Source: Hippasteria phrygiana
Lineage: Eukaryota; Echinodermata; Asteroidea; Valvatida; Goniasteridae
Assembly (NCBI GenBank): GCA_037893225.1
Contig: JAZGUH010000624.1
Span: 62,001-126,000 of the forward strand
Direction: 5' to 3'
DNA: 64,000 nt
Below the pieces are notes generated by a model. It searched no databases. It saw nothing but the letters and a program-made list of their open reading frames with translations, and had not been told where the DNA came from. The position numbers and the translations under genes were made by a program. Numbering within the stretch: position 1 is the first letter of the stretch; every line of letters starts with the position of its first letter. Below, piece by piece: positions 634-60,237 of this stretch.

Positions 634-1399
634 CACGTTTCTACTGTGCGCACGAAAACCGCTGAACGGTTTTCCCCCAAAATCCCACTAAGCCTCATTT
701 ACATCCTCACCTTGTGTGCGCCAAGCAAAAAATCGCCTGAAGCGGTTCCAATTTTCGAAAAAGGTGGAAAAAAATCTCCGATACGTACTGACAGCGAATG
801 ACACGACATGCATGATGCGACTGTTGCCGGCCGGCCGGGTCATGTGCGCGGGTCCGACCAGACAAGCTCATGATTATTCATGTCAAAAATCTGAAGTACG
901 GCGCGCACGGCATGCGCTGCCGTCGTGTCCATTCCCCGTCCGCATCGCGCGCATCGATCACTAGTGCATGTACTGGAAACATGTACATGTACGTGTATAT
1001 GTGTACGTGTATATGTGTACGTGTACGTAGTGATCGATGCGCGCGATGCGGACAGTAACGGACACGACGGCAGTTGTGTTTGCATGCCGTGCGCGCCGTA
1101 CTTAAGATTTTTGACATGAATAATCATGAGCTTGTCTGGTCCATGGAGGTATTAATACCTCCATGTCTGGTCCGACCCGCGCACATCACCCGGCCGGCCG
1201 GCAACAGTCAGTCGCATTGTGCATGTCGTGTCATTCGCTGTCAGTACGGATCGAAGAAATTTGTTCACCTTTTTTCGAAAATTTGAACCGCTTCAGGCGA
1301 TTTTTTGCTTGGCGCACACAAGGTGAGGATGTAAATGAGGCTTAGTGGGATTTTGGGGGAAAACCGTTCAGCGGTTTTCGTGCGCACAGTAGAAACGTG
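634..1399. repeat. Large imperfect palindrome (~330-bp arms)
   Basis: The left arm (about 634-964) is the reverse complement of the right arm (about 1030-1399). Both outer ends carry CACGTTTCTACTGTGCGCAC or its complement, and the centre is a short (ACGTGT)n-type tract. The outer ~110 bp of the right arm recurs at 44108-44230. The right arm differs from the left by one insertion, the 24-bp micro-palindrome at 1142-1165. It is probably a foldback or MITE-like element; no target duplication was identified. Small reading frames here are not convincing genes. Confidence 0.85.
1142..1165. mobile_element. Micro-palindromic insertion M1 (24 bp, 7-bp TSD)
   Basis: A perfect 24-bp palindrome begins CATGGAGGTATT and continues with its own reverse complement. 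It is flanked by exact 7-bp direct repeats TCTGGTC (1135-1141 and 1166-1172). The opposite arm of the surrounding palindrome carries the uninterrupted sequence with a single copy of the 7-mer, so this is an insertion with a visible empty site. Four relatives lie at 13210, 42889, 42983 and 43230. Confidence 0.85.
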
Positions 1400-2381: not shown

Positions 2382-2865
2382 CTTGATGAAAATAATTGCC
2401 CATATATAAGGCATATTACTAATAAGAAAAGAAAAGCATGGTCACAAAAAGGATGTCACAAAACTCAATTTAAGAACGCAAATACAGTCTTGAATGCACC
2501 ATAATTTGAATATGACCAAATAAACGAAAACGGCAAATTGCCCGCCAGGAAAACCTATATTACAAACACGACTATATATGGCATTAATATTTACACGCAT
2601 ACAAGTACCCACACAAATAAATTAAATCTGCATATATACAATAACTTAGGTTTTAACTTATTCCAGTATTGTCGTGATTCCTGCTTTACCGTACGGGCGG
2701 GAAGGGCGAAAAAAACACCGCGAAAGTCATTTTGTACTTTCGAAAAACACGGATAGGCCCTATCCTTTTTTGGCTTAAAACTCTTCCAGGGCAGTGGCGG
2801 TGCATGTTTTTTAAAAAGTCTCAGTAACATTCAGTTAGAACTGATAAATACACTGGTAAGTGTTT

Positions 2866-3052
2866 TTTGGGCGAAGTGGTTTTTGGGCGAAGTGGTTTAT
2901 GGGCGAAGTGGTTTTTGGGCGAAGTAGTAATTGGGCGAAGTGGCGTTTGGGCGAAGGGGTAATTGGGCGAAGTGGGGTTTGGGCGAAGTGGCGTTTGGGC
3001 GAAGTGGTTGAGGGCGAAGTGGTTGAGGGCGATGTGGTTTTTGGGCGAAGTG
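2866..3052. repeat. Inverted tandem array of 16-bp unit (right arm of FB1)
   Basis: About 12 copies of the complementary unit TTTTTGGGCGAAGTGG, inverted relative to 1727-2006. The outermost variants mirror the left array (GGTTGAGGGCGAAGTGG next to the terminus). Confidence 0.95.
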
Positions 3053-3062
3053 ACCGACAACC

Positions 3063-3249
3063 CTGGAAATATGTCTATGTTTCGCGGGTCAGATGTCAGG
3101 GGTCAGAGGCCAATTTTTTTTTTGTAATCACTACTCACTAATTACAACACATTATACGTGGTTTTTTGCATGAACAACTCTTATAAACGATAAGGAACAT
3201 TTCGAAACGGCAAAATTTCATGACATTTGAAGGCAATGTGTCCCTTGAA
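3063..3249. repeat. Dispersed repeat S, copy 1, right part
   Basis: Matches 36068-36258: TATGTCTATGTTTCGCGGGT, the GGTCAGAGGC segment, CACTACTCACTAATTACAAC and CATTTGAAGGCAATGTGTCC. This is the continuation of 1400-1715 across FB1. Confidence 0.85.
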
Positions 3250-3416
3250 GGGCCGGTCACACTGGCCACGATAACGAAGACGATAACGAAAACTGTGAGA
3301 ATAAACGGCATTGATTGGTGGAATTGTCGCGCGTGTAATACGCGCGCGTTCCATCCACCAATAGGGAGGGTTTATTCGCATCGTTTTCGTTATCGTGGCC
3401 AGTGTGACCAGCCCTT
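3250..3416. mobile_element. MITE with ~30-bp terminal inverted repeats
   Basis: The left end GGGCCGGTCACACTGGCCAC, followed by GATAACGA, is mirrored at the right by TCGTTATC and GTGGCCAGTGTGACC. The interior has a GC-rich inverted core (GCGCGTGTAATACGCGCGC). It abuts repeat S at a GTGTCCCTT motif. No coding capacity. Confidence 0.75.
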
Positions 3417-4046
3417 TAGTGCGTGTGCTGCGCTTCCAGCAGCCTGCATTGGGCCTGATAAGTCCGTGCGTCCCAAACATTACTAAACAGTCATCAGCTT
3501 AAAAAACAAAAAACAGACTCGCCGGAAAAAGGCAAAAGAATACATTGTTGGCCTTGGATTTAAGCATCTCATGCAAGAGTTATTACGACTGTACAGTACG
3601 AAAAATTGAAATGATACGTCAGTGAATGACGTGGACCCATGAAAATCTTTCGGCGAAAACGGCAAGTCAGTAAATTCACTTGCCAAAATATTTTAATCTG
3701 TGACATGAGAAAAGAAAACTTAATAAAGTCAATAAAAAAAGATGAATGTTGACTAACATGCCCAGGGAAAACAAAATTTTGACTGGCATTTCACGTCTGA
3801 AGAGGCCAACTACAAGATAATTACAAATTGACGAACTGCATTATGGGTAATAGTGAAGCGATTTTCAAATTTCCTTTTTGACTATTGCAAAATTATGGAC
3901 ATTGAAATTTGTGAACAAATATAGAAAACTAATTTGGTTGCACTAGGATTAATTCTTATTTAATCAAGTGATCCGGAAACGTCAATGATCCGGAACTGTC
4001 GCACTGACTGTATGAACGTGTAACCTCGCGTGGACTGATGTTTTTT

Positions 4047-6511: not shown

Positions 6512-7575
6512 AAAATGAGGGGTCAATGGTCACGATAGGTTAACCATGGAGGAGGGAAAGTGCAAAGTTATATATTTTTGTGATTTAAATTTGTGGTCAT
6601 TTTGGAGGACAATTTCAGTTAAAGTAGTGTTGGCTATTATTCTTTTTTGATGGGCTTTGGTTCATTTAGTTTAATATTTACAAGCCCATTCATAGCTTGT
6701 TTTGAATTGAATCATAACTTAATTTCAGCAAAAGCCATCTTGGAAAACATTTGCAGTGATGGGAGCAGCCATCTGAGAAAACATTGCCTACCATGATCTA
6801 AAATAGAAGTAATGAACAAAAAGGCATTCTTCCATCCCTTTTTTAAAAACAAAAATTAATAATTTAAAAAATGTGAAATGTGCTTTAATAGCTTGAGGCA
6901 TTTGTAAAAAAAAATCTAAACTGTACCAAATGTTAGGATTGTTGAAATTGTTTTGCAAATCACGGGCTTGAGGCTGTTTCTGTACATAAACGTAACTAAC
7001 AAATTAAACAGTTGTGTAAACCAAATTTATTCGAATTTGTCTCAATGTCTCATATCTTGTATTTTCTGCTCTTTTCTTGTACAGCGGTGTACATGTACTT
7101 CACTTGAAGAGGAGCATGAAGGAGTTGCAGCTGATTTATCTACAAGTACAAGAGGATGCCATGCTTGGAACTGACTAGCTACCTAGCTTCGTTGTTGGGC
7201 GGATTAACAAGAGTCCTACCTTCATAAAGTTTCAAAGAGGAGATGAATTTAATTGTTTGTCACAAATATGTAGGGCCTATTACAATCTTATAGGAGTGTA
7301 TGGAAAAATCAGAAATTACATTTGGTAATTCTTGTGATTAAAATTCAAAATATATTTCTGTCCGAGGTGCCTACAGAAATGCCCAGCATTATTATGTATT
7401 ATGGAAACAGCCTAAGAAACCAATTATTGACAACAATTCGGATGTTTTCCCCAAAGAATATAATTTAAAATGTTGCTGCTGGAATTGTGATACATGTAGT
7501 AACCATGTTATTTTGTCATCTTGCAGTTGGATAACTTTTGGAGAAAACACATGGGGTTCACGGGAACTAGCCACG

Positions 7576-7998
7576 GGGGGGGCCACGGGGGGGGGGGGGG
7601 GGTGCACGGGGGGGGTGCACGGGGGGGGCGCACGGGGGGGTGCACGGGGGGGGTGCACGGGGGGGGGTGCACGGGGGGGGTGCACGGGGGGGGGGGGTGC
7701 ACGGGGGGGGTGCACGGGGGGGGGGGTGCATGGGGGGGGTGCACGGGGGGGGTGCACGGGGGGGGTGCACGGGGGGGGTGCACGGGGGGGGTGCATGGGG
7801 GGGGTGCACGGGGGGGGGGGGGGGGGGGTGCATGGGGGGGGGGGGTGCACGGGGGGGGGGGTGCACGGGGGGGGTGCACGGGGGGGGGGGGGTGCACGGG
7901 GGGGGGGGGGGGTGCACGGGGGGGGGGTGCACGGGGGGGTGCACGGGGGGGGGGGGGGTGCACGGGGGGGGTGCATGGGGGGGTGCATGGGGGGTGCA

Positions 7999-8030
<32 letters not shown>

Positions 8031-8465
8031 CGGGGGTGCACGGGGGGGTCGTGGGGGCACGGGGGGGTGCACGGGGGGGTGCACGGGGGGGGTTGCACGG
8101 GGGGGGTGCAAGGGGGGGGGTGCACGGGGGGGTTGCACGGGGGGTGCATGGGGGGGGTGCACGGGGGGGGTGCACGGGGGGGGTGCACGGGGGGGTGCCA
8201 CGGGGGGGGTGCACGGGGGGGGTGCACGGGGGGGGTGCACGGGGGGGGTGCACGGGGGGGGTGCACGGGGGGGGTGCACGGGGGGGGTGCACGGGGGGGG
8301 GGGTGCACGGGGGGGGTGCACGGGGGGGTGCACGGGGGGGGTGCACGGGGGGGTGCACGGGGGGGTGCACGGGGGGGGGTGCACGGGGGGGGTGCACGGG
8401 GGGGGTGCACGGGGGGGGTGCACGGGGGGGGTGCACGGGGGGGGTGCACGGGGGGGGGGGTGCGG
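7576..8465 (+). repeat. GTGCAC(G)n minisatellite (~65 units)
   Basis: About 890 bp of the unit GTGCACGGGGGGG with the G-run varying from about 5 to more than 20. Nearly every unit has a run of at least five G, so the plus strand has extreme G-quadruplex potential. GTGCAC is itself palindromic. Long frames here encode only low-complexity Gly- or Pro-rich peptides in several registers and are not genes. Confidence 0.95.
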
Positions 8466-10068: not shown

Positions 10069-10798
10069 TGGTCCGAGTAATGTTCAGACAAGAACTGAAT
10101 GTATTGGTGGAAATTTGTTTTTCAGGGGTTTTATGTTAGCGATGCTTAACAAAACGAGCCAAGAAAAGACTGAAACTTACCCATTGCGGTTCTTTACAAG
10201 ATGTTCAAAGAGATTGTTTGAGAAAATCGGTAGCAAGTGAACTAGGATGGTTGTTGTAGAGAGGTTGGCGCGTACTAGGCTGGATCATGGAGGCTGGATC
10301 ATGGAGGTTGGATCATGGAGGTTGGATCATAAATTTAGTGTCAAGGCGTTGCCCCATTTATAGTGATGCGTATGGAACTACTTTATGCCACACTGGCTAA
10401 TGAGATGCAAAACAATGTTTTTCAGTAGGAACTATATTTTTCGAGGCAATCCAAAAATATACAAACACATGAAGCGGATGAATACTAGCATTAGACTTGC
10501 GCAGCAAAAATATAGCAGTGACGTCAGCGATATTTCCAGAGCATTACGGTAAGCACTTATAAATCCAGAACCACCAAAATGACATCGTCGCGCGCATCAC
10601 GCCTTGTGCAAATAGTGCCTATTCAATACGGCCTAGTGCATTTTCAGTAATACATGATGATGTCTTTTTGGTGGTTCTGGATAAGTGATTACCGAGCATT
10701 ACATACACTCCGTTCCAATGCGCATGCGATGAATTGTACAGTCCATTCCAATGAAAGTAGGGGGGGGGGGGGGGGGGGCCCTACACCGGCAATGTATA

Positions 10799-12635: not shown

Positions 12636-13066
12636 TTGCAAGAACAAAAAAAATCATTCAAGATAAACGCAAAATTATCATGCAAGACCAACATTTTCAT
12701 GCAAGACCAGAATTATCATGCAAGATCAAAATTTTCATGCAAGATGAGAATTTTCATGCAAGATCAAAATTTTCATGCAAGATCAAAATTTTCATGCAAG
12801 ATCAAAATTTTCATGCAAGATCAAAATTTTCATGCAAGACCAAAATTATCATGCAAGATCAAAATTTTCCTGCAAGATCAAAATTTTCATGCAAGATCAA
12901 AATGTTCATGCAAGATCAAAATTTCAATGCAAGACCAAAATTATCATGCAAGACCAAAATTTCTATGCAAGACCAAAATTTCTATGCAAGACCTAAATTT
13001 CAATGCAAGACCAAATTTATCATGCAAGACCTAAATTTTCGTGCAAGACCAAAAAAAATCGGGCAA
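12636..13066. repeat. 19-bp tandem array, left arm of FB2
   Basis: About 22 copies of CATGCAAGATCAAAATTTT, with AAGACC and ATTATC variants. Because 19 is not divisible by 3, the unit reads through all three frames without stops, giving repetitive frames that are not genes. Confidence 0.95.
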
Positions 13067-13209
13067 GAAAATAAAACCAAGAACCTCGTCCCCAGGGGCT
13101 TACTTTATTAATATATCGCTTCCAAAACTCGCTACCCGGCCCCGGACTCGTATCGATCTCGATTCAATCATATTGCACAATCTGCTAAAGGAAAAGTGTT
13201 TCCTTGTAC

Positions 13210-13235
13210 CATGAAGGTATTAAAATACCTCCATG
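13210..13235. mobile_element. Micro-palindromic insertion M2 (26 bp, 7-bp TSD)
   Basis: CATGAAGGTATTA is followed by AAATACCTCCATG, a near-perfect palindrome, flanked on both sides by exact CTTGTAC (13203-13209 and 13236-13242). The ends are the same as in M1, M3, M4 and M5. Confidence 0.8.
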
Positions 13236-13449
13236 CTTGTACTGAAGCGTCAAGAAACAAGGTGACACTAACTGGACAGCAATTTGGCCGAAATCGATCG
13301 TGCAGTAGCGGCGACTGTGGATGTCACGGAATGTCACGACTGTCGATGTCCCGTCCGTATTGACACGACAGGCGCTGGGTTTCATCTGGAATGATAAACT
13401 CGATCTGTTTTCCTTCCTCCATGGCTCCGTACTATTCACTGCAGGAAAC

Positions 13450-17946: not shown

Positions 17947-18479
17947 CCTCACATAACCTACCTACCTCCATGATATGATGTACATGAATACATGGGACCG
18001 AGTCTTCGTTGCATGCAGTTTGGGAAATCAACCAAAACATGTATTACTGCATCAATCTAAATATACGGAATTCGAAGAAATAACCCCGCTTTCAATTTTC
18101 ATTTTGCTTGCTCACCTGGGTATACCCTCACCTGACATATCCCCCATGCAGAAGCTAGCTGGCGATTCGCAATAGGGCCCGCGATTCGCCCGATAGAGCT
18201 GCCTGTGGCTATTGTATGGCTCCCAGACGTCATATACACACGATGAACTGCGCCAGACTAGTAACTTTTCAGCCTCTTTCCGTTAAAAGAAATACAAATG
18301 TTCTAATTATTCAGCGTGTAGTGCTCATTAACAAACAAGATTCACAAAAAAACTAGTCCTATCTCTAATATTTATTTCTATTGAACGAACCAAAAAGAAA
18401 CCATCCTACTTAGGTACATAACGAAGGGGTTCTTTTTGCGCCTCGACCCACGGCCGGCCTAATCACGTGATAGTCACGT

Positions 18480-18840
18480 GCATCTTGCACGAAAATTTTG
18501 GTCTTGCCCGATTTTTGTTAGTCTTGCACGAAAATTTTGGTCTTGCATGATGAATTTGGTCTTGCATTGAAATTTAGGTCTTGCATTGAAATTTAGGTCT
18601 TGCATGATAAATTTGGTCTTGCATTGAAATTTAGGTCTTGCATAGAAATTTTGGTCTTGCATGATAAATTTGGTCTTGCATTGAAATTTTGATCTTGCAT
18701 TGAAATTTTGATCTTGCATGAACATTTTGATCTTGCATGAAAATTTTGATCTTGCATGATAATTTTGGTCTTGCATGATAATTTTGGTCTTGCATGATAA
18801 TTTTGCGTTTATCTTGAATGATTTTTTTGTTCTTGCAAGA
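18480..18840. repeat. 19-bp tandem array, right arm of FB2
   Basis: About 19 copies of the complement of the left-arm unit (AAAATTTTGATCTTGCATG). The order of unit variants near the element terminus mirrors the left arm. Confidence 0.95.
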
Positions 18841-19092
18841 AAAACGGTGTTTTTAATTAATTCCGCTTTGGCTTGCCATACCCCGTTGGTCGGCCTGACC
18901 TGCTGAATCCTCGGTGGTGCCGCGATATGATTTCCCCCTTGCCGACTGCGGGTTTGCTCAAAACGGAGTACCGGTTACGGTCGCGATGTCCGGAACTGGC
19001 GCCTGCGGAATGGCCGTTGCATATTATCGGGGTCACATTTGGGCTTGCCGAATTTTCATGCCTGGCTGTTTTCACGGCAAGACGCTTTCGCC

Positions 19093-20199
19093 CATATGAA
19101 TTTGTTAACCCCACTTTTGTTCACTTAATTTCACAGTTTAAATCTGGCGCGTAGAGTATAATACAGAGGTCTATGGTTATTAAATTGGATTAACGCTGGT
19201 CCTGTGTAGCTGTGCGTTCGGCCCTGAAATGTGGCCCGGCACACTCCATTCACAAAATGGGTAAAACAAAACATCTTTGCACGAGGGCATGCATAAACAC
19301 AGGCACTGGTTTATAGCTGCAAGTAGGAAACAAAGATATAGTTAAGTTTAGTAATTGTTTAATTTTCTAAACAACACATAATCTCAATTATTTTGGAAAA
19401 GACATACGTATGTGGGTGTACATGCATATATATACTCCCCACATACAAAATGGTACGGCCCAATAAACAAGTGTACGTTCTTTGCATCACATAATTTCTG
19501 TAGCTGCCTTGAATGAACAGTATTCAGTTCCAAATTTACATTATTTCAAAATGAAATTAACTCCTCAAAAGAACACAGTTTTAATGCCAGATAACTGATT
19601 CACAAATGGATAGTTTTTAAATGTCTTAGTTACAGTAAAATCGAAGAAAATCTGTCTTGTAAAACGGGTGATGAGCAGAGTCCAAGATCATGTAACGCGT
19701 GGTAAGCAATGGTAAATCGATGTAAGTCTCGAACAATGCCTTATCGATCGAAAGTTGTCATTGGCCACTTTTTTCTTTGTGAAAAGTACGTAGGTGTTTT
19801 TCAACCAATCATAACAGGTTTTACATGTAAGGAAAGAGGAGGATCTAAGCTATTCGATTCCGTTTAACCCCGTACGATTCGATACTCCAGTAAGGAGTTA
19901 CAGTCAAAAGAGTCGACGCGAGGGCGCTCAATCGGTGCGTTTACACAGACAAATGATGAAAAGTTCACATTTTCAAAGCCGAAAGTACGTGGATTTTTTT
20001 CAAGATAAAATATATGTATATATATCATGAGAACGACAAAGAGTTAAATCGTATAGAACCGTTTAACCCGGTGAAAAAGACCGCATGGTTATCAAACTAT
20101 GACCCGAAACGTCGAAAAAAAGGGTCATTTTACGCGGATTTTCGCCCGGAAATGGGCCCCGCACAGAGGTTTGAGCTTAAGTGAACACAACAAATTCAT
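19093..20199. mobile_element. 1.1-kb TIR element in R copy 1
   Basis: The left end CATATGAATTTGTT...GTTCACTTA is inverted relative to the right end TAAGTGAACACAACAAATTC, then ATATG. R copy 2 lacks the whole segment: CGCTTTTGCC joins TTTATTGCCAATACGG directly at about 51710. No target duplication beyond the palindromic CATATG ends. Non-coding. Confidence 0.7.
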
Positions 20200-21656
20200 A
20201 TGTTTATTGCCAATACGGTGGCCGATAAACAACGTCATTAGAAAATATCAATGTAAATCTTCAAAATCGGTCGTCTCTCTCTTTTAAATAGCTTGCTGGC
20301 GAAATGCTGGCACTTTCTGCCGATGGTTTCCAATTTTTTTTTTTAGAAAAGCAAACAAATATACATAAAATAGTTAAGTAGACCAAAAAACGTTTTAGGC
20401 TTACGCACCGTTAGGCCTACAGGCGAACGTACGTGGCGCTATTCATAAGGCCAAAAAAAATTGTTGTTTATCTCGGCCGACAAATTGGAAAAGAGGGTCA
20501 GTCGGTCGGGATTTTTTTCGTATTCACGCTCACCCGGGCGTGTTTAGGCCTACACATTAAACGAACACCCTGGTTTAACAGACATAAAGGCTGAGTTATG
20601 TTTTTATTGATATGTTTAAAAAAATCGCCGACCCTGAATCTGTCGATTTTTACGGTCGTCGGTTTGAGGGCGACACAACAATTTCTTAAGTTTGCCTAAT
20701 GACTAGAATACCATACGTGTGCACGACTACTTGCAATGGACTAATTACTTTTCCCAGCGATTTTGTACTTTTTGTAAATGTTTTGGAATTTTAAAAATAT
20801 TATCCCCTACAGTATGAAAAAAATCTTGACCTCAAACCCAAACGCGGCTCTACTGAATCGGTGCAAAAACACAGCCAACCTAATTAATCCGACTAAAAAT
20901 TCCGATTCTGAAACTAAAAAGTTGAAAATCAGTCTTAGAGTGCCGGATGCCGTTTTCCAACGATTTTGTACCATTCTAAATGTCCGGGAAAGTCAATTTA
21001 TTAAACAAATGGAAATTATCAAACCCTGACCTCCAACGTCCTAAATGCGCTCCGAATAAAACAGTGCAGAACCAGTGGCTCAACTCATTCAAATTAAAGA
21101 AGGATTTTCGGTTAAACAGCTGAAATCAGTCCAAAAATGGCAGAATGTTTATATTTGTCTCAATTCAATTGAAAGAACGACCCCTGACCTCCAACCTAAA
21201 GACGGCCCGAATGAAACGGTGCAGAACCAGTACGGTAGCCTAAGTCAAATTAAAGACGGATTTTCGCCTTCGGTTAAAAAAAGCTGAAACAAAAAGCTTA
21301 ACATCGGTCTTAGAGTGGCGGCCGGAATGCCGTTTCACGACGATCTTGTACGTACCATTCTAAATATCCGAACAATTATTTTTAAACAAATTAAAAGATC
21401 AACCTTCGACCTCCAACCTAACTGGTGCCCCGAATACAACGGTGCAGAAACAGTCAGCCCAAAAAGAATTTAAGACGGATAACAAAACACAAGTCTGTCA
21501 TAAAAAGGCCAAATTCCATTCCCTCAACTTTTGTACCATAAGACAATGTTAGAAGTGCCCCGCCGCGCAGTCCTACCATCTAGCGGGTGCCGCGCGAAGG
21601 AATTTCACATTAGCCCCTTCTGCGCACTTCCGGGTTGAAAGCGATAATGTCAGTGG

Positions 21657-21860
21657 CAGTGGCGTAACTGGGCGAAATTTCGGGGGGGGGGGGGGGGCAC
21701 ATGGGGGTGCACAAATTTGTTTCAAGGGGGCACCGACAGTACATAAGCTGCACCTTGTATATTTTCTTGTACATTTGAAGATTTCAAATGGGGGGGGGGG
21801 GCACCCAGGGGGGCACGGATGTCAGCTGGGGGGAACGTCCCCCCCGTAGTTACGCCACTG
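21657..21860. mobile_element. hAT MITE, CAGTGGCGTA family, nested in R copy 1
   Basis: The termini CAGTGGCGTAACTGG and AGTTACGCCACTG enclose two long G-runs. The flanks are GTCAGTGG and ATCAGTGG (7 of 8). The same insertion is at 53111-53331 in R copy 2, so it predates the R duplication. Confidence 0.85.
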
Positions 21861-22049
21861 ATCAGTGGCAAACAAAACAACGCTTTTCAGCACATTCATT
21901 CATGCGGCCATAAAAGGCAGCGCAGGCGTTAGTCTTGGTTCCAAGACATCCTCAGGGTGCACCACAGGTCTCGAGACCTATATACAACACTGGTGGGAAG
22001 CCACAGCCCAAGAGTGGAACGGATCTACACAGAGCAGGATATCGTTTTG

Positions 22050-23481
22050 TGTATATTAACTCAGCTGTAGAACTGGGTGCACAAGCTGTACTAGATCACC
22101 AACAGAAACATCCCGAGTGTGATGGTCGACCAAAACTATTGGCAGATGCAGAAGAGTGTAGAGGTTTAGCCGTCTCAGAGGTGATGTCCTGCGAAAAGTG
22201 TGCTTATAAAACAGGACTCGACAAAACTGTACAGTGAAATACCTCACAAGGGCAGGAGGCGGGGACGACGCACTGCCACTCCCAACATGGATTTCCAAAT
22301 TGGACTGCAGAACACTGGCATCGCAACCTCGGCTGCAAGGAGGCTCTTGACATCAATGGACACAGCTGTACCATCCACCAGTGGGCTGCAAAAAATGTCG
22401 AACAAATGTGGCGAAATCATTATGAACGAAAATATCAGGGACATGGCGGACAGAAAAAAACTAGTGAAAGACATCCAGGCTTCAAGGCTTCGAACGAGAG
22501 AGTCCAATTGCCGTTGAGGTGGACAGGCAGTACAATAATCCCCTCCGCAACTGCAGAAAAAACACCATTCGTGCCTGCTACACAGACTAGAGACACTGTA
22601 TGCGAGAACGTGGCTGCTGCCAAGTTTATTGTCATGTTTAATCATGAGAGCAAACTTTGTAAAAGTGGTGAACATTCACAAGCCCTCTTCAGTCAACAAA
22701 GTGAATGCCCAAAACACAGCCAAAAGTGCACAGCCACACGTCCACCCCATTTCAACATGGGAGATTAGAGGGAAGGGGGAGTACAATCTGCTACTAAGCT
22801 TTTGAACTGCGAAGAACCATTGCTGGTGAACAGGGTTACAACAGACGCGGATGGTTGTTTGGCACAAGGCATAAACTCAGTAATGAAAAAACAACTGGAC
22901 AGGAAACAGAGACTCTTTTTGACCCATCGCATTTAAATCGTTAACTTTGTGCAGCAATAAGTCGAGCAAACTTCAGCAAGGGCATGTTCCCTGGGAATAC
23001 AGCGAGAGAACGAAATCATGTTCAGGACCGCTTTGCTGATGACATCAGCCATAGGGTATCAGAGGTATACCAAATATCACAAAAATGTGGACATGACATT
23101 GCCATGATGAAAAAAATGGCTTCCAAGGCAATCGCCGCAATTCCAAATTGCTATATGGGAGACCATGGGAAATGCAAAACAAATTCTCAAGTTTGCCATG
23201 GCAAATATAAGTACCCATACCTCTCCCGCTATGTCCGGGGCAGATTGATTTTAACTACTGAAGATGAGGAACTCTTAAAAGAACTTTTGGGAAAACGCAT
23301 AGGTGATGAGGCAATAGAGAGAACAAAGTACAGTACGGGCACACAGAAGTCTGAATCTATGAACCACGCGTACGCTAAATCCAAAAGGAACACTTACATT
23401 TTCGAGAAATGCAGCCTCAGGAGATCACAGCGCCATACATTTTGTGAACAACCAACACGCAAACTTTATCAAAAAGTGTGA
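22050..23481 (+). pseudogene. Decayed Mutator-like transposase (MULE-type)
   Basis: Consecutive plus-strand segments in shifting frames look like one invertebrate transposase-like protein. They include a zinc-binding-like SCEKCAYKT (near 22190), a TTDADG acidic motif (near 22845), the segment MFPGNTARERNHVQDRF (from 22984), and a C-terminal part with GDHGKCKTNSQVCHGK and TQKSESMNHAYAKSKR. The spacing recalls Mutator-like transposase families with a TTDGD motif and a Cys/His cluster. Several frameshifts and stops mean it is inactive. It begins where repeat R copy 1 ends. The family is assigned from memory of pattern only. Confidence 0.5.
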
Positions 23482-41090: not shown

Positions 41091-41738
41091 TCAAACAAAA
41101 GATGGCGTGCTGCCACGTCTTACATGGTTGTACTGCCACTGGACTTCCCCAATTCGTGATGAAAAGTACTGGCAGTAAGCATCCCGAATGGATGATGAAA
41201 TAGCGCTGTAGTTATTGCTGCCCACATGTTGAATACTCTTCAGCCCAACACTAGCAGCAGCTTCATCACGCCATCCTCCAGGTGCTGTCGTACCATCTCC
41301 TTTCTCAACATCCGAGTAATCAAGTGGGCAGTAGCATCTGCTTTCTGCAGGTTGTTGCTGATCGGCCATCTTCAGCCAGTTGTGAAGGGCACAGGCTGCC
41401 TTGACAACGGATGTCACTTTGCTTGTTTTGGCTATGATAAGTCGATGGAAAACTCTCCACCTCGCAGATAGTATGCCAAATGCATTCTCAATGGTGCGTC
41501 GAGCACGTGACAGCCTGTAGTTAAAGATGACTTGCTTTTCTTGGAGCTGTCTCCCTGGGTATGGTCTCATAATGTTAGGCTGCAATGGAAAAGCTTCATC
41601 AGCTACGAAGACAAAGGGTAGCTCTTCATCTACTCCAGGAAGACTTGCAGATGGAGGGAGGCCTAGTGAATCTGCCTCGATGGCTCTACCAAATCCTGAT
41701 GCTGAGAAAACACCTCCATCAGCGTTGCGGCAAGATAT
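41091..41738 (-). pseudogene. HARBI1-like transposase, C-terminal exon (internally deleted)
   Basis: The minus-strand frame contains NADGGVFSASGFGRAIEA, FVFVADEAFPLQPNIMRPYP, FNYRLSRARRTIENAFGILS, ARWRVFHRLI and VKAACALHNWLK, the C-terminal half of the DDE_Tnp_4/HARBI1 nuclease with its last acidic catalytic residue in IENAFG. A good acceptor (CTTTCAG) precedes 41738. In one frame the first codons continue exon 1 exactly as family members do (SMTLR joined to YLA). The stretch between there and NADGGV, which would carry the first catalytic Asp, is deleted and the frame shifts. Confidence 0.85.
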
Positions 41739-42387
41739 CTGAAAGATAAGAAGAAGAATGTGAATAAGTAGACAGGTACGTTGTAGTAACACAGATTCGG
41801 AAGGTACATGAACATTGGAGGATTGGTGATTATCCAAAAAGAATTACTGATTTTTAATCTGAAGGGTTACTTGATGAGTTGGTAGTAGCACCGATCACCA
41901 GAGAAATATTTTTGTGTGAAATGCTGTCAATCATCGAGAAAACTGTGATTTAACACAATTTCATCTTTGTGGCCCCCAACAACCCTCTGAAGGGCCAAAC
42001 AATTATTTTAGAGAAGACATTAAACAAAATTAATAAAGAAAATCCATACAGTCTGTTGACCATTTAAAAAATTGAAGTGTTTTAATTCCACAATTGACCT
42101 ATCGCCGTTTATGAGTTAACCACGCCCCTTAGACAACCTTATGGGAATTGTGTGTGGTAATTTTTGTTTGTCTCAGATTGTGTGTATTCCACGTGGAATT
42201 ATAATTGATGTGATTGGACAATAATACACAAGCTGCGTTGACGCGATTCGACCGCGATAGGTCAATTATGAATAGGATAATTTACAATGGCAATGCTGTT
42301 GTGAGAGGGCTTTACTGCCTGAAAAAAATGATGCAAGCACTGTTTGAAAAAAACAAACCAGTATACATATCACTTCCATGCACGAGC

Positions 42388-42686: not shown

Positions 42687-42888
42687 AACATACATGCTTA
42701 AATCTTCAAATGATACCCATAAACAAAAAATGGTCAAGATGACATGCCAAGTTCAAGATCTAAAATACTAGGCCCAGTTTGACCATTACTAGATCCACCA
42801 CACTTATCACAGGATAAACAAAACTTATAAATAGGCCTATATAAAAATAAGTTATAACTATAAACAAACTTATCTTCCTCTATCCCAT

Positions 42889-42921
42889 CATGGAGGAAGG
42901 AACAGTGTTCCTTCCTCCATG
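42889..42921. mobile_element. Micro-palindromic insertion M3 (33 bp, 7-bp TSD)
   Basis: CATGGAGGAAGGAACA continues into its complement TGTTCCTTCCTCCATG around one central G. The flanks are exact ATCCCAT (42882-42888 and 42922-42928). Confidence 0.85.
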
Positions 42922-42982
42922 ATCCCATTAAAGGGGGAATCACTATCCAGCATCAGACAGTAGTGACTTGTGTCAGTGAGTG

Positions 42983-43011
42983 CATGAAGGAAGGAACTTC
43001 CTTCCTCCATG
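42983..43011. mobile_element. Micro-palindromic insertion M4 (29 bp)
   Basis: CATGAAGGAAGGAA with partner TTCCTTCCTCCATG. The flanks are GTGAGTG (42976-42982) and GCGAGTG (43012-43018), 6 of 7 matching. Confidence 0.75.
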
Positions 43012-43229
43012 GCGAGTGTGAACCTGCATGAACAGTGTCATGTGCTTGTGTGCTCAGTGCTGGGCAATATCCGTGCCACACAAGTTGTGAGGCTAGTTTC
43101 CTTCATCCACCACGACCATGCTGTCCCAATTCGATGTGAACAAAATGACCACGTTATAGTGATACACATGGCTCCCTTGTAGATTTTGGTATTTTGCCAT
43201 TAGCGTGATTATGGCGACTATGATATAAA

Positions 43230-43253
43230 CATGGAGGATTTCCTACCTCCATG
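43230..43253. mobile_element. Micro-palindromic insertion M5 (24 bp, 7-bp TSD)
   Basis: CATGGAGGATTT followed by CCTACCTCCATG (imperfect centre). The flanks are exact ATATAAA (43223-43229 and 43254-43260). Confidence 0.8.
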
Positions 43254-43350
43254 ATATAAAGTACAACGGGAGCGACAACCAATGACCAGGTGAAATATAC
43301 ACAACATGAACTACATGCGCTGCATGCTTGTGCTGCGTACATGTGTACGA

Positions 43351-43508
43351 ACCATAGAGTTATATACTTTCTATAGGCCGTGTCCGAAATGGGCTTCCAG
43401 AGCTACGGCTACGGCTATTGTCAGCATTTCTGCACGTAGTTGTAATGGGCGCACACACCTAGACAATAGCCGTAGACAAGAGTTTCTGATGCGGCCTAAC
43501 TCTATGGT
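43351..43508. mobile_element. Small MITE with 12-bp inverted ends
   Basis: ACCATAGAGTTA at left and TAACTCTATGGT at right, with inner inverted similarity (CTACGGCTATTGTC and GACAATAGCCGTAG). Flanked by ACGA on both sides. It lies in the Harbinger transposase intron. Confidence 0.75.
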
Positions 43509-43655
43509 ACGAACGCACATCCCACACGCACGTAAAATTGTTGAGCGCCACCAAGTGGCGAACAAACGACAAATTAGGCCCAATTATTTACAGGACTGAA
43601 CATGATGAATACTTGTGTGCCTAAATAAAGTAATATTTATTGAATAAAGACCTAC

Positions 43656-43954
43656 CGAAGTGTCATTGAAAGTCGTTCTTCTGCAGATATCGGGAATGCG
43701 TGGGTTTCTTTATGGTGAATTTTCGGAGCAACCATTTCCAACAACCTTTCGAACTGGCAGGGGTTCATTCGGAAGGCGCTGAAAAACAAACTGTGGTCTG
43801 CCAGCATCATTTCCCGAACGAGGGTTTGATGAGCTTCTTCAAGTGGTCGCAATTGGTTTATTCTACGAACATCAATCGATCGCTTTTTAATACTTTTCTT
43901 GCGACGTAGCAGAAGTACAAAAAGAACCAATCTTTTTTGCTCTACCGGCAGCAT
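43656..43954 (-). pseudogene. HARBI1-like transposase, N-terminal exon
   Basis: The minus-strand frame from 43954 includes LADHSLFFSAFRMNPCQFER, LLEMVAPKIHHKET and SAEERLSMTLR, the N-terminal region of PIF/Harbinger transposases (FRM...F..LL..V.P.I...). It ends at a donor CG|GTAGGT at 43655. The start lies about 150 bp inside the right terminal repeat, as expected for the element's main gene. Its partner exon at 41091-41738 is deleted and frameshifted. Confidence 0.8.
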
Positions 43955-44107
43955 GGTAGACTTCGCACTAAACGATTCGCAAAAAGTATGAACGTCATTT
44001 TCGCAACGAATTAATTCGTCCCCTCTCGCTGCGAATTATTCGCGCCCGGTGCGCGAATTCGCAAGTAGAAATTCGCTTCGCATTCGCATTCGCATGAAGT
44101 ATGAACC

Positions 44108-44330
44108 GGGCTTCAGGCGATCTTTTGCTTGGCGCACACAAGGTGAGGATGTAAATGAGGCCGAGTGGGATTTTGGGGGAAAACCGTGCAGCGGTTTTCG
44201 TGCGCACATGTCAAACGCGAGTGCATGGGAATTTCTTTTTGTTATTCTTGCTGTACTAGCCTTTTAGAAAAATACGCGTCTTTCTATGGGGTTCCTGTCG
44301 GGAACCCCATATTTCTAGGGGTAACTTGAA
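44108..44330. repeat. Copy of the segment seen at 1287-1475
   Basis: Shares TTGCTTGGCGCACACAAGGT, GAGGATGTAAATGAGG and GTGGGATTTTGGGGGAAAAC, and then the TATGGGGTTCC/GGAACCCCATA small hairpin. It abuts the right Harbinger end. Confidence 0.8.
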
Positions 44331-44538
44331 CCGTACTTTCTCCAGATCATGTCCAAATGTTAAAAAGAGGGTCCTAGTTACTCGGACTAATCATTTATGA
44401 TGAGTAAGAGTACATGGAATTTTTCTCATTTGAGTACGAGTACGAGTACGAGTACTACAACAATGTAATCAATTAAATGTCATTTCTGTCGAGTGTCCGA
44501 GCATGGAAGAATAAAACACATTTTTCCATGGTCCGAGT

Positions 44539-44604
44539 CAGTGATGTAGTCGAGGCCATCACAAGGCCACACAGACCCTTGTGATGGCCTCGACTACAAC
44601 ACTG
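44539..44604. mobile_element. 66-bp hAT-type MITE (exact 8-bp TSD)
   Basis: CAGTGATGTAGTCGAGGCCA at left and GGCCTCGACTACAACACTG at right form a near-complete hairpin. Flanked by exact GTCCGAGT (44531-44538 and 44605-44612). Confidence 0.85.
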
Positions 44605-45410
44605 GTCCGAGTAATGTTCAGACATTAATTAAGAACCGAATGTATTGGTGGAAATTTGTTTTTCAGGGGTTTTATGTTATCGATGCTTAACAAAACGAGC
44701 CAAGAAAAGACTGAAACTTACCCATTGCGGTTCTTTACAAGATGTTCAACGGGATTGTTGGAGAAAATCGGTAGCAAGTGAACTAGGATGGTTGTTGTAG
44801 AGAGGTTGGCGTGTACTAGGCTGGATCTTGGAGGTTGGATCATGAATGTAGTGTAAGGCGTTGCCCCCATTTATAATGACGCGTATGGAACTACTTTATG
44901 CCACACTGGCTAATGAGATGCAAAACAATGTTTCTCAGTAGGAACTATATTTTTCGAGGCAATCCAAATATACAAACACATGTAGCGGATGAATACTAGC
45001 ATTAGACTTGCGCCGAAAAAATATAGCAGTGACGTCAGCGATATTTCCAGAGCATTACGGTAAGCAAAATATCTAGAACCACCCAAATTCCCCAATTACA
45101 TAAAGGTACTTACCTGCAATATAATTAGAAATATATGAGACAATGGAGGAGAGACTCACCCTGTAGATTGTTCCTTGTGATGCAATCTGATCCACCCTTC
45201 GCAGCTAATGGAATCAACCTCATTAGTATGCAAAACTCCCAACGACTGCTACATATACCCAGTGATGCCTGGAATCGCTGTCTTTTTTAAGCTTGACGCT
45301 GTGTGATGGTACGGTATCTCATGGAGGTATATCTGTCATCGGCGCTCGGGAGGGTGTAAAGGTCAAAGACCTACATAAAAAAACAAAGAAAAGAGACATA
45401 GGGAGGGAGC

Positions 45411-45522: not shown

Positions 45523-46147
45523 TCAAAGCATCTCTGCCGATGACGATGCCAGGATTGCTCGGCCAAACTCTGAAGAGGATGAAGACCTATTGTAAAATTT
45601 TGCGAATGTGTTGGCCGAAGGCCAATCTGCCGCCTTTAGGATATCAGGCATGGAGACACCCGCCTGAGCTGCTGCTGAGGTAGACGCACCTCTAGTTGAA
45701 TGACCTTTAAAGGATGAAGTGTCAATCCCTGAAAGAGACATGACGTCTCTGAGCCACCTGGAAATAGTAGAAGGCACTACTGGGTGAAAAGGCCTAGCAT
45801 GAGACAGAAGTATTGACTGAATCGTGAACTACCTTCACCTCTGCAATGCTGAGTTCGATCAAGATACTCCTGAAGAGCCAGAACAGGGCATAAATTCCTG
45901 CAAGCCGGGAAAGGATGAACTTCTATGTTATGAAATGGTTTAGCGACCGAAACACGCTTAGAGGGGTGAACCAGCCAGAAAACACATAAGCGCCGTTTGC
46001 CTGCCTGACCATCTGGGTAAGATGGATCGCTGTCAAAGACGAAACACGGCTAGCGGTTACCAAAGCTAACAACATCGTTAGCTTTAAGGTGAGCTGCTTC
46101 CGTGACAAACGTCTGTTGTCCGGCAAGGACTTAAAGGGAAAGTCCAC
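45523..46147 (-). pseudogene. DIRS tyrosine recombinase, catalytic part
   Basis: The frame 46147-45923 carries LTLKLTMLLALVTASRVSSL, the motif with the first catalytic Arg. The frame 45777-45523 carries FKGHSTRGASTSAAAQAGVS (H-x-x-R box), then W...TFAKFYNR with the nucleophilic Tyr. The stretch between them is frameshifted (45780-45920). The N-terminal part is separated by the insertion at about 46135-46780. Confidence 0.8.
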
Positions 46148-46780
46148 CCTGAGTTTATAATAACATAATGTTAAAGAACGTTAATTGGAATTGTGACTTA
46201 CCTTTTATTTCATTTTGATTGGTTTCGATAATCGTATAAACCCGATGTTTTTTCATAACGCGCCTGCTGTCATGCGGGCTGCCCTTTTGCTCTAGAATAT
46301 CGGTACATCCGGGATACTGTGACGTAGTGGCTGCACTACCAAGCCGGCCGGCCGGCCCCGCAGCCTGAGCTGTGCGAGTGCAGTGAACCATTGTCCATAC
46401 ATGCAACACACACGAGAACGCGGCAGTGTTGTTCCTTGACGCACGTCTGTTTTCCATATTCCTGGCGAATTTTTGCCTGACTGCTAAAGCAAAACTCGGT
46501 CGTGCTGTAGTACAGCAACATCATGACGATTTGGCAAGCTTTTGGCTGCTCAAATACACCGAATTCTCTAAAAGGTCTCAGCGCCTTCTTCCAAATTCCC
46601 AATCCCCCAAAGTCAAACGACCGGATATTTGTAAGAAATGGCTGAACAATATAAAAACGCGACGACTTCGAACCGGATTGCTTTGAGGAAAATCGGCAGG
46701 CAGTTCTCCTGGGGTAGGCTAAGAATCTTCGAGATGATGCAGTGCCTAACATATTTTCTTTCCGACCAGAACAGATTTTG
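46135..46780. mobile_element. Unclassified insertion splitting the DIRS recombinase
   Basis: Recombinase sequence runs to GAPIGQHHLVTRFFKGILTL, then RPFRRA (near 46780), and resumes at SLPDNRRLSRKQLTLKL (near 46130). The ~650 bp between does not fit the family and includes GGCCGGCCGGCCGG near 46344. Exact ends and target duplication were not determined. Confidence 0.55.
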
Positions 46781-46860
46781 TGCTCTTCTAAAAGGTCGTA
46801 GCGTGAGAATACCTTTGAAAAAACGTGTAACCAAATGGTGTTGACCAATGGGAGCCCCAT

Positions 46861-47082
46861 TCACAAAACTATGAGCGGAAGATATGGCCGAACGGTAAAC
46901 ATTAATGTCCTATAGATGAAACCCTTGTCGAAGAGACCTTGCAGGAAATTTAAAAAATCAGCTATAGATGAATAAACCGGATCCACCTGTCTTTGAAGAC
47001 ACCAGCTATTCCAACTCTTCCAAGCGGAGTTGAATTGCCTGTGAGTCCCTTCCTGCCAGGAGCATAGAATAGTGGAGGACAC
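46861..47082 (-). pseudogene. DIRS tyrosine recombinase, N-terminal part
   Basis: The frame includes SAWKSWNSWCLQRQVDPVYS and ADFLNFLQGLFDKGFIYRTL, the SAM-like DNA-binding domain of DIRS recombinases. It overlaps the end of the RT/RNase H ORF in another frame, a common arrangement in DIRS elements. It continues after a frameshift at about 46864 with APIGQHHLVTRFFKG. Confidence 0.75.
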
Positions 47083-49013
47083 TGCAAGTTAAAGTCCCTC
47101 TGACTGCAAGTTCTCCCGGATAACTTCCATGCGGCCAGTTCTAGCTGATTCGTCAATGGATGCACAAGGCGGTGATCGTGCGGGAGACGAAGCAGGTCTG
47201 CTGTCCGGGGCAGGATAACAGGAAAATCGACGAGAAGCTCCAACAGCCTAGGGTACCACGCTTGAGTCCTCCACACCGGGGCAATCAGGACCACTGTTGC
47301 CTCCTCCTCCCGAATCTCGTGTAAGCATTTCGTGAGGAGATCAAACGGAGGAAAAGCATAACCCTGGGTTCCCTTCCAGTCGAGAAGTAGAGCGTCTATT
47401 CTCCAGGCCACGGGGTCGGGCTGCCACGCGACAAAAGTGGTTAGCTGGGTGTTCAATCTGGTTGCAAACAGATCCACCTGCGGGGAGAACTGCAACATCA
47501 GCATGACCCTGTGAAAAATCCGTGGGTCGAGTTGCCACTCTGCCCGATCGTTGAAAACTCTGGACAATTGGTCTGCAGTGACGTTGTGCGATCCGGGAAT
47601 GTGTTGCGCCGACAGATAGATGTTGCGCTTGAGGCACCAGAGCCAGATTTTGATGGCCAGACGGGCAAGGTCCTCGGAGTGTGTACCGCCCATGCGATTG
47701 ATGTAGGCGATTGCCACGGAGTTGTCTAGCTGGAGGCGAACCTGGAGATTGCGTCGATCTTTCAGAAGAGTCTTCAGAGCATAAAAGACTGCCAACAATT
47801 CCAGGAAGTTTATGTGCTTCAGTTGTTCTAGCACCAACCATCGGCCCCCTACTTTCTGACTGTCGAGACAGACTCCCCAACCCAACATTGATGCATCTGT
47901 CTGAATTGTGACATCTGGGGAATGACGAAGAATACTGCGACCGTTCCAAGATTGTAGATATTGAGTCCAAGTAATGAGCTCCTCCCTGGACTCTGGGGTA
48001 AGAGAAACTAGGGACTCGGAATCGCCGCTCTTGTGAAGGGCCAAAATCTTGTCGAATTGAAGGTGTCGATAAAATAACGGAGCTGGAAATACCGCTTGAA
48101 CCGTCGAGGATAACCTGCCCACCAAACTGGCAACCTCGCGTGCCGACGTGGACTCTGCGGCCAACATCTCGTGGCAGTGGCGGATGACTCTGTCTATTTT
48201 CGTTTGGCCGAGGGAAAGGGTCATTGATTGTGAATCTATGACAAATCCCAGGTACTGTGATGGGTGAAGAGAAGATTTGTTATGATTTATGATAAAACCC
48301 AACTTCTGAAGAAGATCAACTGTCTCGTGAGTGTTGCTCAAACACTCCTGCATCGACGAACCAAGAACTAAAATATCATCAAGGTAAATGATACAACGGA
48401 TTCCCCGCTCCCTGAGGAAGGACACTACGGGTTTCAAAATCTTTGTGAATGTGCGAGGGGCACTGCAAAGCCCAAAAGGAAGGCAGGAAAATTGATAAAG
48501 AACCCCTTTCCAACAGAAACGGAGATATTTACGATGGAGGGAGTAGACAGGAACCGTAAAATAAGCATCCTTAAGGTCAATTGTAGTCATCCAATCGTCC
48601 TTAGATAAAAGATCTTTGACCGCCGAGATGTTCTCCATCTTAAAATGTTGATAAGCAATAAAATGATTTAAAGGACGCAAATTTATAACCGGGCGAAGAT
48701 CTCCTGAAATCTTTGGGACCATGAAAAGAGTAGAAATAAATTGTCCTGAAACTGGAAGCTCAACAGTTATGGCCCCTTTGTCCAACATCTTTTGCACCTC
48801 CTGATCAAAATGAAATTCATGACGCTTAGACTGAGCTCGAGGCTTAGGAACACGAACTTGAAATGGAGTAGAAATAAATTCTATATGATAGCCGGAAACG
48901 GCATTGAGGATCCAAGGATCATTGGTGATCAAACTCCAAAATTTAGTGAAAAACGTTAGTCTACCAGCAAGAGGTGCAGAAAAGGTTGGAGCACAAACAC
49001 GGTGAGAAAACAA
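46962..49013 (-). CDS. DIRS reverse transcriptase-RNase H polyprotein (683 aa)
   Basis: An uninterrupted frame. The RT domain includes VPKISGDLRPVINLRPLNHF, MTTIDLKDAYFTVPV, FSCLPFGLCSAPRTFTKIL and CIIYLDDILVLG; YLDD is the catalytic motif. The RNase H domain follows with VTIQTDASMLGWGVCLDSQK, INFLELLAVFYAL, LQLDNSVAIAYINRMGGTHS and IPGSHNVTADQLSR. Intact length suggests a fairly recent copy, although the flanking ORFs are broken. Confidence 0.9.
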   Translation of the reverse strand: MFSHRVCAPTFSAPLAGRLTFFTKFWSLITNDPWILNAVSGYHIEFISTPFQVRVPKPRAQSKRHEFHFDQEVQKMLDKGAITVELPVSGQFISTLFMVPKISGDLRPVINLRPLNHFIAYQHFKMENISAVKDLLSKDDWMTTIDLKDAYFTVPVYSLHRKYLRFCWKGVLYQFSCLPFGLCSAPRTFTKILKPVVSFLRERGIRCIIYLDDILVLGSSMQECLSNTHETVDLLQKLGFIINHNKSSLHPSQYLGFVIDSQSMTLSLGQTKIDRVIRHCHEMLAAESTSAREVASLVGRLSSTVQAVFPAPLFYRHLQFDKILALHKSGDSESLVSLTPESREELITWTQYLQSWNGRSILRHSPDVTIQTDASMLGWGVCLDSQKVGGRWLVLEQLKHINFLELLAVFYALKTLLKDRRNLQVRLQLDNSVAIAYINRMGGTHSEDLARLAIKIWLWCLKRNIYLSAQHIPGSHNVTADQLSRVFNDRAEWQLDPRIFHRVMLMLQFSPQVDLFATRLNTQLTTFVAWQPDPVAWRIDALLLDWKGTQGYAFPPFDLLTKCLHEIREEEATVVLIAPVWRTQAWYPRLLELLVDFPVILPRTADLLRLPHDHRLVHPLTNQLELAAWKLSGRTCSQRDFNLQCPPLFYAPGRKGLTGNSTPLGRVGIAGVFKDRWIRFIHL

Positions 49014-49054
49014 TGTATGAGTAGAATGTACATCGGACTCAGGCTCAATATTAG

Positions 49055-50434
49055 CTAGTTTTTTGCATTCTGAGAGTGCGAGGATCTGGCAAATTTAGCC
49101 CTATCACCCCCATAGGAGGTGCCACCCCTGGAGAAACTCTGAAAGGTACCCCTATGAGAACTACCTCTGCCGCCTGAAGAAGAGAAGCGTCTCCATCTGG
49201 CGGTTCTGGCCAAACTCTGATACGGAGAATAACGCCTTCCCCTGGAACTGGAGGGCCTAGGCTTGGTGTAGGTCACCTTTTGCGGCCAGCCTGTTCGCCT
49301 TCTCTGTATCCTCGATGTCCTTTAAAACGGACGCACCAAACAGCTCATTCAAGGATGGCGATTTTTTCTTGATGACATCAAATTTGTTGTCGACAATGTC
49401 ATCAAAAGCATGCTGCCAAGAGAGGGCCAAGCTTTGGCTCGCTGAGCCGAGGAGTATAATTCCGGAGGATACAAATTGTAACACATTCTCCCTGGAGATC
49501 TCCTCAGGACAATCAGGGTCAGCCACGGCATCGAAAACGTCTCAAGAAAGGGAGAGCCGCCTTGAGGACATGACCATGGGATAGGCGTAGCTTATCATCA
49601 ACGGAAACTGTACTAGAATTCGCTTGTCTGAAAACCTTTTTAATACCGGTAGGTAACTCAGGGGCAGAAAAATACTTCTCCTGTTCCTCGGGAACGGAGT
49701 GTGTACTAACCTCCTCCTTGAAATCCTCAGACGAGAGACGATGAGATCTGAGCTCTTCCCACCACTTCAAAACCTTCTCCGAGATGGGATTACCCAAGTT
49801 CTTACGATGAGGGTTACGAAAAACCTCAACATTCGAAGGTGATGCTGTGGCTGCCAAAAACTGGGATTTTTCGCCGTCACTGTCACTAGTTGCGCTAGGC
49901 GGGTCAGACACGGTGTACCGTTCCGACGCGTCCAAAATGGCGTCGGTTAAATCCTGAGGAGTGGGCAGGGGTTTCACATTCCCGGATGATCTATGACGTC
50001 AGTCAACGGTCAGTGAAGCCGACGGCTGTTCGGTGTGGGATTGTTGGGCTGTCGGGAACCACTGTCGACATACCCCAAGGATTAAGAAAATACGGCAAAC
50101 CGGGAGCCGGAGCGTAGCCTGGAGCGTAGCCCGGAGCAACATTTTGTGGTGGGAAATTCAAGGGGGTCTGTCCCCACGGCGGAACTGAAGGCAGCGGCTG
50201 CATGAACACCGGTCGCTGCTGTTGGGCCCATGATGAATATGGATCCCCAGACTGAAAGAGCCCACTGGTACTGTCACCGGGGGCCACGCCGCTGACCTGA
50301 GCCGAAGGCACGGGAGTTGAGCTGGAGCTGGACCCCGCCTGGAAAAAACGTTCCGACGGAGCAGATGAGTGGGCCGGTAAGGGCTTCGGGGACGACACCC
50401 CTCTACCCGAAAAACTTTCAGTCCGCGACGGCAC
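49055..50434 (-). pseudogene. DIRS gag-like ORF1 (frameshifted)
   Basis: Successive frames 50434-50003 (Ser/Pro-rich), 49977-49519 (VSEKVLKWWEEL-like helical part), 49526-49257 (NVLQFVSSGIILLGSASQSL) and 49276-49055 (Arg/Gly/Ser-rich, SSGGRGSSHRGTFQSFSRGG) overlap at their ends, as expected for one ORF with three frameshifts or stops. The basic RG-rich tail directly precedes RT and probably binds nucleic acid. Confidence 0.7.
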
Positions 50435-59045: not shown

Positions 59046-59109
59046 CTATGAAAAGGATAGAGACAGGTGAAAGAAAAGCTTTTTGTAAACATTTCGGGCT
59101 CGTACAGGA

Positions 59110-60230: not shown

Positions 60231-60237
60231 GATGCAG

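Follow-up and report, generated by a model that had tools for sequence, protein, structure and literature searches.

Short CATG-ended inserts between 7-bp target duplications as probable excision footprints of P-like DNA transposons

The P-element transposase makes a staggered cut of 17 nt at each end, an unusually long stagger that sets P elements apart (PMC7776569) and is called atypical in a second account (PMC10983969), and excision leaves 17-nt 3′ tails at the donor site (PMC2895639). In that work the fly tails are called non-complementary (PMC2895639), so pairing rests on short stretches. Table 1 of the same paper gives the P{wa} junctions a common architecture, a duplication, a CATG... 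arm, a ...CATG arm and the duplication again, and they read duplication-CATGATGAAATAAC(AT)GTTATTTCATCATG-duplication plus variants (PMC2895639). Summed over the table as displayed, which holds 66 isolates where the figure legend gives 68 sequenced, both 8-bp duplications are whole in 44 of the 66 isolates. The remaining 22, which lose part of the duplication and include a long-microhomology class of 14, stand outside our counts, as do Tables 2 and 3 of that paper (mus308 double mutants, with some insertions of >40 nt). Among the 44 duplication-keeping junctions, 20 are perfect palindromes and 25 measure 20–34 bp, with 14 longer through insertions and 5 shorter; the commonest, a 30-bp perfect CATG...CATG palindrome, was found in 14 isolates (PMC2895639, Table 1).

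Here we describe six inserts of comparable layout in a 64-kb stretch of DNA, hereafter the window; coordinates are given without strand unless one is stated. The window reads as animal-type DNA and contains an RVT_1 reverse transcriptase, a DDE_Tnp_4 transposase fragment, hAT and Mutator-like pieces and an ORC5-lid match. Retroelement pieces at 45526–49998 (−), with a 710-aa reverse transcriptase ORF (RVT_1) and a weak, below-cutoff tyrosine-integrase match, suggest a DIRS/Ngaro-like element. Tandem arrays are frequent, comprising a very G-rich 13-bp array (about GGGGGGGGTGCAC, ~880 bp) at 7575–8459, 16-bp arrays (CACTTCGCCCAAAAAC) at 1726–2006 and 2858–3052 in opposite orientations that form large inverted repeats, and 19-bp arrays (CAAAATTTTCATGCAAGAC) at 12670–13054 and 18483–18805, also in opposite orientations. 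Many GATGACGTCATC/TGACGTCA palindromes lie at irregular spacing between 61200 and 63960.

M1 and five further inserts with CATG ends

A large imperfect palindromic (fold-back) repeat occupies positions 630–1403, and its right arm carries the insertion M1, in which a perfect palindrome of 24 bp, CATGGAGGTATTAATACCTCCATG (1142–1165), a candidate pair of joined P-type terminal-repeat remnants, lies between exact copies of TCTGGTC at 1135–1141 and 1166–1172. The sequence thus reads exactly as in the original prediction, which had further claimed that the opposite arm holds one TCTGGTC and no palindrome; alignment of the two arms bears this out, placing the lone TCTGGTC, the empty target site, at 856–862 on the minus strand (GACCAGA on the plus strand) and leaving a clean 31-bp gap at the M1 position. 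The direct repeat can alternatively be read as GTCTGGTCC, 9 bp, reaching into the ends of the palindrome, and the net insertion is 31 bp (24 + 7) under either reading. The arms are 96% identical between 630–773 and 1260–1403 and 98% identical between 856–915 and 1082–1141, and their other differences near M1 are single bases, one of which adjoins the duplication and is C where the site is filled and G where it is empty. When the flanks of M1 are joined into an empty site, 41 of 43 bases match the opposite arm, this empty site being the paralogous arm of the fold-back and not an allele. By eye, the palindrome at 634–1399 has a truncated second copy at 44100–44270 (AGGCGATCTTTTGCTTGGCGCACACAAGGTGAGG... 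to TTCTTGCTGTACTAGCCT), spanning its right arm and right flank, and the fold-back is therefore probably a dispersed repeat.

Together with M1 (scar 1), the window contains six CATG...CATG inserts of 24–33 bp, five flanked by exact 7-bp repeats and one by a 6/7 match. Pattern and motif scans recovered scar 2 (13203–13242; CTTGTAC, 26-bp CATGAAGGTATTAAAATACCTCCATG, CTTGTAC) and scar 4 (42976–43018; GTGAGTG, 29-bp CATGAAGGAAGGAACTTCCTTCCTCCATG, GCGAGTG, the 6/7 match), pattern and motif-free scans recovered scar 3 (42882–42928; ATCCCAT, 33-bp CATGGAGGAAGGAACAGTGTTCCTTCCTCCATG, ATCCCAT) and scar 5 (43223–43260; ATATAAA, 24-bp CATGGAGGATTTCCTACCTCCATG, ATATAAA), and the motif-free scan recovered scar 6 (44495–44537; GTCCGAG, 29-bp CATGGAAGAATAAAACACATTTTTCCATG, GTCCGAG), so that the inserts measure 24, 26, 33, 29, 24 and 29 bp from scar 1 to scar 6. 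The target duplications differ at all six sites, which therefore represent six independent insertions.

No two inserts are identical, and all six have in common only the outer CATGRA. Scars 1 and 2 share the arm CATGRAGGTATTAA, yet differ in length (24 versus 26 bp) and centre, and scars 3 and 4 share the arm CATGRAGGAAGGAAC, yet likewise differ in length (33 versus 29 bp) and centre, these two pairs being the only cases of junction variation within one arm type; the arms of scar 6 are related to, but different from, those of the other scars. The two arms of an insert are complete or partial mirror images: M1 and the 33-bp scar 3 are perfect palindromes and the other four inserts have 3–9 mismatches to their own reverse complement, with the arms agreeing over only 8 nt in scar 5 and only 7 nt in scar 6 and diverging already at the fifth base in scars 2 and 4.

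Four of the six sites fall within 1.64 kb (42889–44530; p ~0.0009 under uniform placement), a clustering that may stem from a hot spot, from local jumping or, with one window sampled, from chance. Scars 3–5 sit between a DDE_Tnp_4 fragment at 41094–41843 and an ORF at 43655–44035. The first is PIF/Harbinger-like and the second a possible N-terminal exon (both −); this ORF looks like a Harbinger N-terminus, with no match to a Pfam family. Adjoining scar 6, a 66-bp hairpin at 44531–44612 (CAGTGATGTAGTCGAGG...CCTCGACTACAACACTG), flanked by eye on both sides by GTCCGAGT, resembles a very small MITE of the hAT type whose duplication is 8 bp, and the GTCCGAG target was thus hit twice.

Duplication length, size limit and the search for parent elements

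The pattern CATGRAGG-N(4-30)-CCTYCATG matched five times in the window and never in 100 shuffles, and a 7-bp direct repeat borders each of the five matches, exactly in four cases and at 6/7 in one. Of 85 CATG pairs enclosing inserts of 16–40 bp, six have exact 7-bp flanking repeats, five once the G-rich tandem repeat at 7974–7989 is set aside, while repeats of other lengths are scarce (one pair at 4 bp, none at 5, one at 6 and none at 8–12), and the largest exact 7-bp count over 200 dinucleotide shuffles was 0. Seven is a specific length for the duplication. An excess of 7-bp flanking repeats over shuffled controls, anticipated by the original prediction, is therefore present inside the 64-kb window (5 versus 0 in 200 shuffles). 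Shifting the right-hand repeat gave 0–1 exact matches; a shift by 7 gave up to 8 matches with one mismatch, perhaps from the G-rich array.

A scan allowing at most two mismatches per 8-bp end and at most one in the repeat returned exactly the six sites. At up to three end mismatches it added two TTGGAAT matches (12313 and 51208, with identical inserts) and two G-rich matches, all dropped. A motif-free scan (inverted ends of at least 6 bp, an exact 7-bp flanking repeat, up to 80 bp) gave six matches in the window, four of which start with CATGG, including the new one at 44502–44530 (scar 6); the matches at 6459 and 41601 have other ends and were taken as chance. In motif-free scanning of shuffled sequence (inverted ends of at least 6 bp, 12–60 bp), 3 of 40 shuffles held at least one match with a repeat of at least 7 bp. 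Matches with CAT-only ends at 594, 2053, 7794, 7974, 19539, 30933 (exact) and 60601 were left uncounted, as was a 10-bp CATGAATGTC between exact CGACTCC copies at 29795 (−), a possible one-armed scar or chance; the remaining extra rows listed with it are tandem arrays, and 10286–10321 was dropped as a short tandem repeat.

The inserts of this kind in the window stop at 33 bp. Extending the CATG scan to 34–80 bp with at most one mismatch in the 7-bp repeat gave four matches of 41–78 bp, all rejected: two belong to the G-rich array (7729, 7794) and two to ACGTCA-palindrome repeats (24790). Between 46 and 3000 bp the window yielded no element whose ends resemble CATGGAGG (one mismatch at most per end) and whose 7-bp duplication is exact. 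The 64 kb likewise contain no recognised full-length parent element. Single ends of CATGGAGG at 6545, 13423 (−), 17972 (−), 37433, 45320 and 59234 (−) and of CATGAAGG at 7115, 13656 (−) and 35375 (−) were tried as ends of longer elements, and neither kind had a CAT-starting partner with a 7-bp duplication (at most one mismatch) within 12 kb; weak partner ends, one for 13423 and two for 59234, match the end at only 6–7 of 10 bases. The end at 13423 (−) matches the arm of scars 3 and 4 over 14 bases and was dropped as a plausible coding start by eye. At 59234 (−), CATGGAGGAAGGAA matches that arm over 14 bases too, stands without a partner end or duplication, and may be an element end or a scar with one arm.

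Among longer pairs, 57045–60446 has the size of a P element (3.4 kb), CATGGCAA inverted ends and CTATGTC/CTATGCC flanks, and is probably a chance pairing; its outer 250 bases contain no common 9-base words beyond the ends and no subterminal repeats. The pairs at 17991–23106 (5-bp ends, 6/7 duplication) and 2437–3707 (4-bp ends, exact duplication) were also taken as chance, and several further long CATG pairs lie inside the G-rich array and the ACGTCA repeats. A scan of 112 hand-picked ORFs from the window, nearly all of at least 80 aa, detected neither a P transposase nor a THAP domain at E ≤0.01; it covered a minority of the 326 listed ORFs of at least 60 aa and stayed outside low-complexity ORFs and tandem arrays. 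Six scars without a single parent in 64 kb make for a high ratio, which counts against reading the inserts as scars.

Excision footprints and rival explanations

Taking these observations together, we consider it likely that M1 and its five companions are footprints left by the excision of P-superfamily-like DNA transposons. A P-like element whose ends read CATGRAGG... (or CATGGAA...) would have inserted and duplicated 7 bp of its target, and a transposase would later have excised it, presumably cutting one strand ~17 nt inside each end in the source organism as well, leaving donor ends with 3′ single-stranded tails that each correspond to the first ~17 nt of the element. The two tails, copies of one inverted terminal repeat, would then have been end-joined, partly through pairing of short self-complementary stretches (for example TTAA), giving a short palindromic or near-palindromic insert between two target duplications; in M1, a joint on the self-complementary stretch TATTAATA would yield the perfect 24-bp palindrome.

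Given that each tail would have at most 17 nt, their joining would place at most 34 bp between the duplications before any inserted bases, and the 33 bp of scar 3 (17 + 17 − 1) would fit two 17-nt tails overlapping by one base. A footprint would also keep two full target duplications and no more than 17 nt from each end of the element (34 in total before untemplated insertion); both duplications are kept at each site, exactly at five and at 6/7 in one, and all six inserts stay within that length. Independent repairs would be expected to leave differing centres within same-arm pairs; copies of a single mobile unit would not.

The original prediction had seen a signature of transposition at M1, and the 7-bp duplication, the empty site and the CATG ends recurring at six sites uphold it; the part left unsupported is that the 24-bp unit itself moved, as all six inserts share only the outer CATGRA, none are identical, same-arm centres differ and none exceeds 34 bp. 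Self-mobile micro-elements, non-autonomous units of 24–33 bp (below the size of any ordinary MITE) on which a P-like transposase acts in trans while reading only the outer CATGRAGG, are accordingly quite improbable, despite a separate target duplication at every insert, CATGRA ends in all of them and the lack in the window of longer, exactly duplicated relatives that end alike. Against them stand the 0 identical pairs among six, the differing centres of same-arm pairs, sizes that end at 33 bp, and the binding of P transposase to internal sites beyond the 31-bp terminal repeat, for which such units have no room (PMC7776569). That a P-like transposase needs little beyond the 8-bp CATGRAGG, with the varied centres arising from repair between jumps, is a slimmer prospect still; if true, these would be among the smallest transposing units known. 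Internally deleted P elements of 0.5–2.8 kb are known (PMC7776569), and the inserts could in principle be P-like MITEs from extreme interrupted gap repair, still insertions rather than excision sites, but a broad size range would then be expected, against none of 46–3000 bp (exact duplication, CATGGAGG-like ends) and six of 24–33 bp in the window, and we regard this origin as very improbable.

Chance palindromes or template-switch (hairpin) mutations without a transposon are scarcely credible. A template switch is plausible inside a long palindrome, where M1 lies, but five of the six sites are outside it; of 200 permuted end words, one scored nearly as well as the real motif (maximum 5), but the mean was 0.22 matches, and one end motif with one duplication length recurs at six sites against 0 in 200 shuffles. 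The excision scar is better supported than the P superfamily, to which we tentatively and indirectly assign the parents from their end sequence, the 7-bp duplication length and the scar anatomy, no transposase having been recovered. The scars could instead belong to a non-P transposon group that likewise duplicates 7 bp and cuts deep within its ends, which we judge unlikely, given that the 17-nt stagger is described as unusual and a P feature (PMC7776569, PMC10983969) and that the inserts start with CATG as does the Drosophila P end (PMC2895639) and with CAT as does zebrafish Pdre2 (PMC10983969). Target duplications of 7 or 8 bp are a mark of the P superfamily and here measure 7 bp; the CATGGAGG end is identical to none of the P-family ends compared here.

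If the inserts are P-type scars, an animal-type genome would be a readable archive of natural excision, marking sites where P-like elements sat and recording germline breaks with defined 3′ tails joined by microhomology, bluntly or with insertion. To our knowledge, Drosophila assays have been the main source of P-type excision junctions to date. This kind of scar is already known and is here recognised in number; a limited literature search of titles and abstract openings found no published genome-wide set of P-type scars. Six scars in 64 kb, including four inside 1.64 kb, a density from one window chosen for interest and not a genome rate, suggest that mining the genome could reveal repair signatures and insertion hot spots, and also that parents may be gone while scars remain. 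A micro-palindrome between target duplications is not necessarily a transposon.

Comparison with known systems

Copies of a MITE, itself a mobile unit, have their interior in common. The window inserts resemble MITEs in having terminal inverted repeats and target duplications, but differ in that they lack a common interior and are <34 bp.

Within the P superfamily, 1360 has 7-bp duplications at 274 of 279 D. melanogaster sites, where the other terminal-inverted-repeat families tabulated have 8 bp (P-element, hobo) or 5 bp (hopper, Transib) (PMC3276498, Table 3), and the duplications of Galileo are mostly 7 bp (PMC4168063). Both thus resemble the window sites in duplication length (PMC3276498, PMC4168063); Galileo differs in its target consensus GTANTAC, which is not evident at the six sites (PMC4168063). 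Zebrafish Pdre2/THAP9 is a P-like case outside flies whose 13-bp terminal repeat starts with CAT, and Pdre2 differs in its CATACC start and 8-bp duplications (PMC10983969).

The P{wa} footprints differ from the window sites in having 8-bp rather than 7-bp duplications, and they are fresh laboratory events in spn-A (Rad51-lacking) flies, whereas the window sites are genomic (PMC2895639). The Drosophila P end reads CATGATGAAATAACATA and the window inserts CATGGAGG..., with the CATG start common to both (PMC2895639). Junctions of >34 bp make up 14 of 44 in the fly and 0 of 6 in the window, which is compatible (~10% by (30/44)^6); junctions that lose part of a duplication would be invisible in the window, so its scars are undercounted. 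By contrast with these differences, the two sets of sites share the layout of duplication, CATG arm, ...CATG arm and duplication, with up to 17 nt per arm and a centre that in P{wa} varies with microhomology or insertion (PMC2895639).
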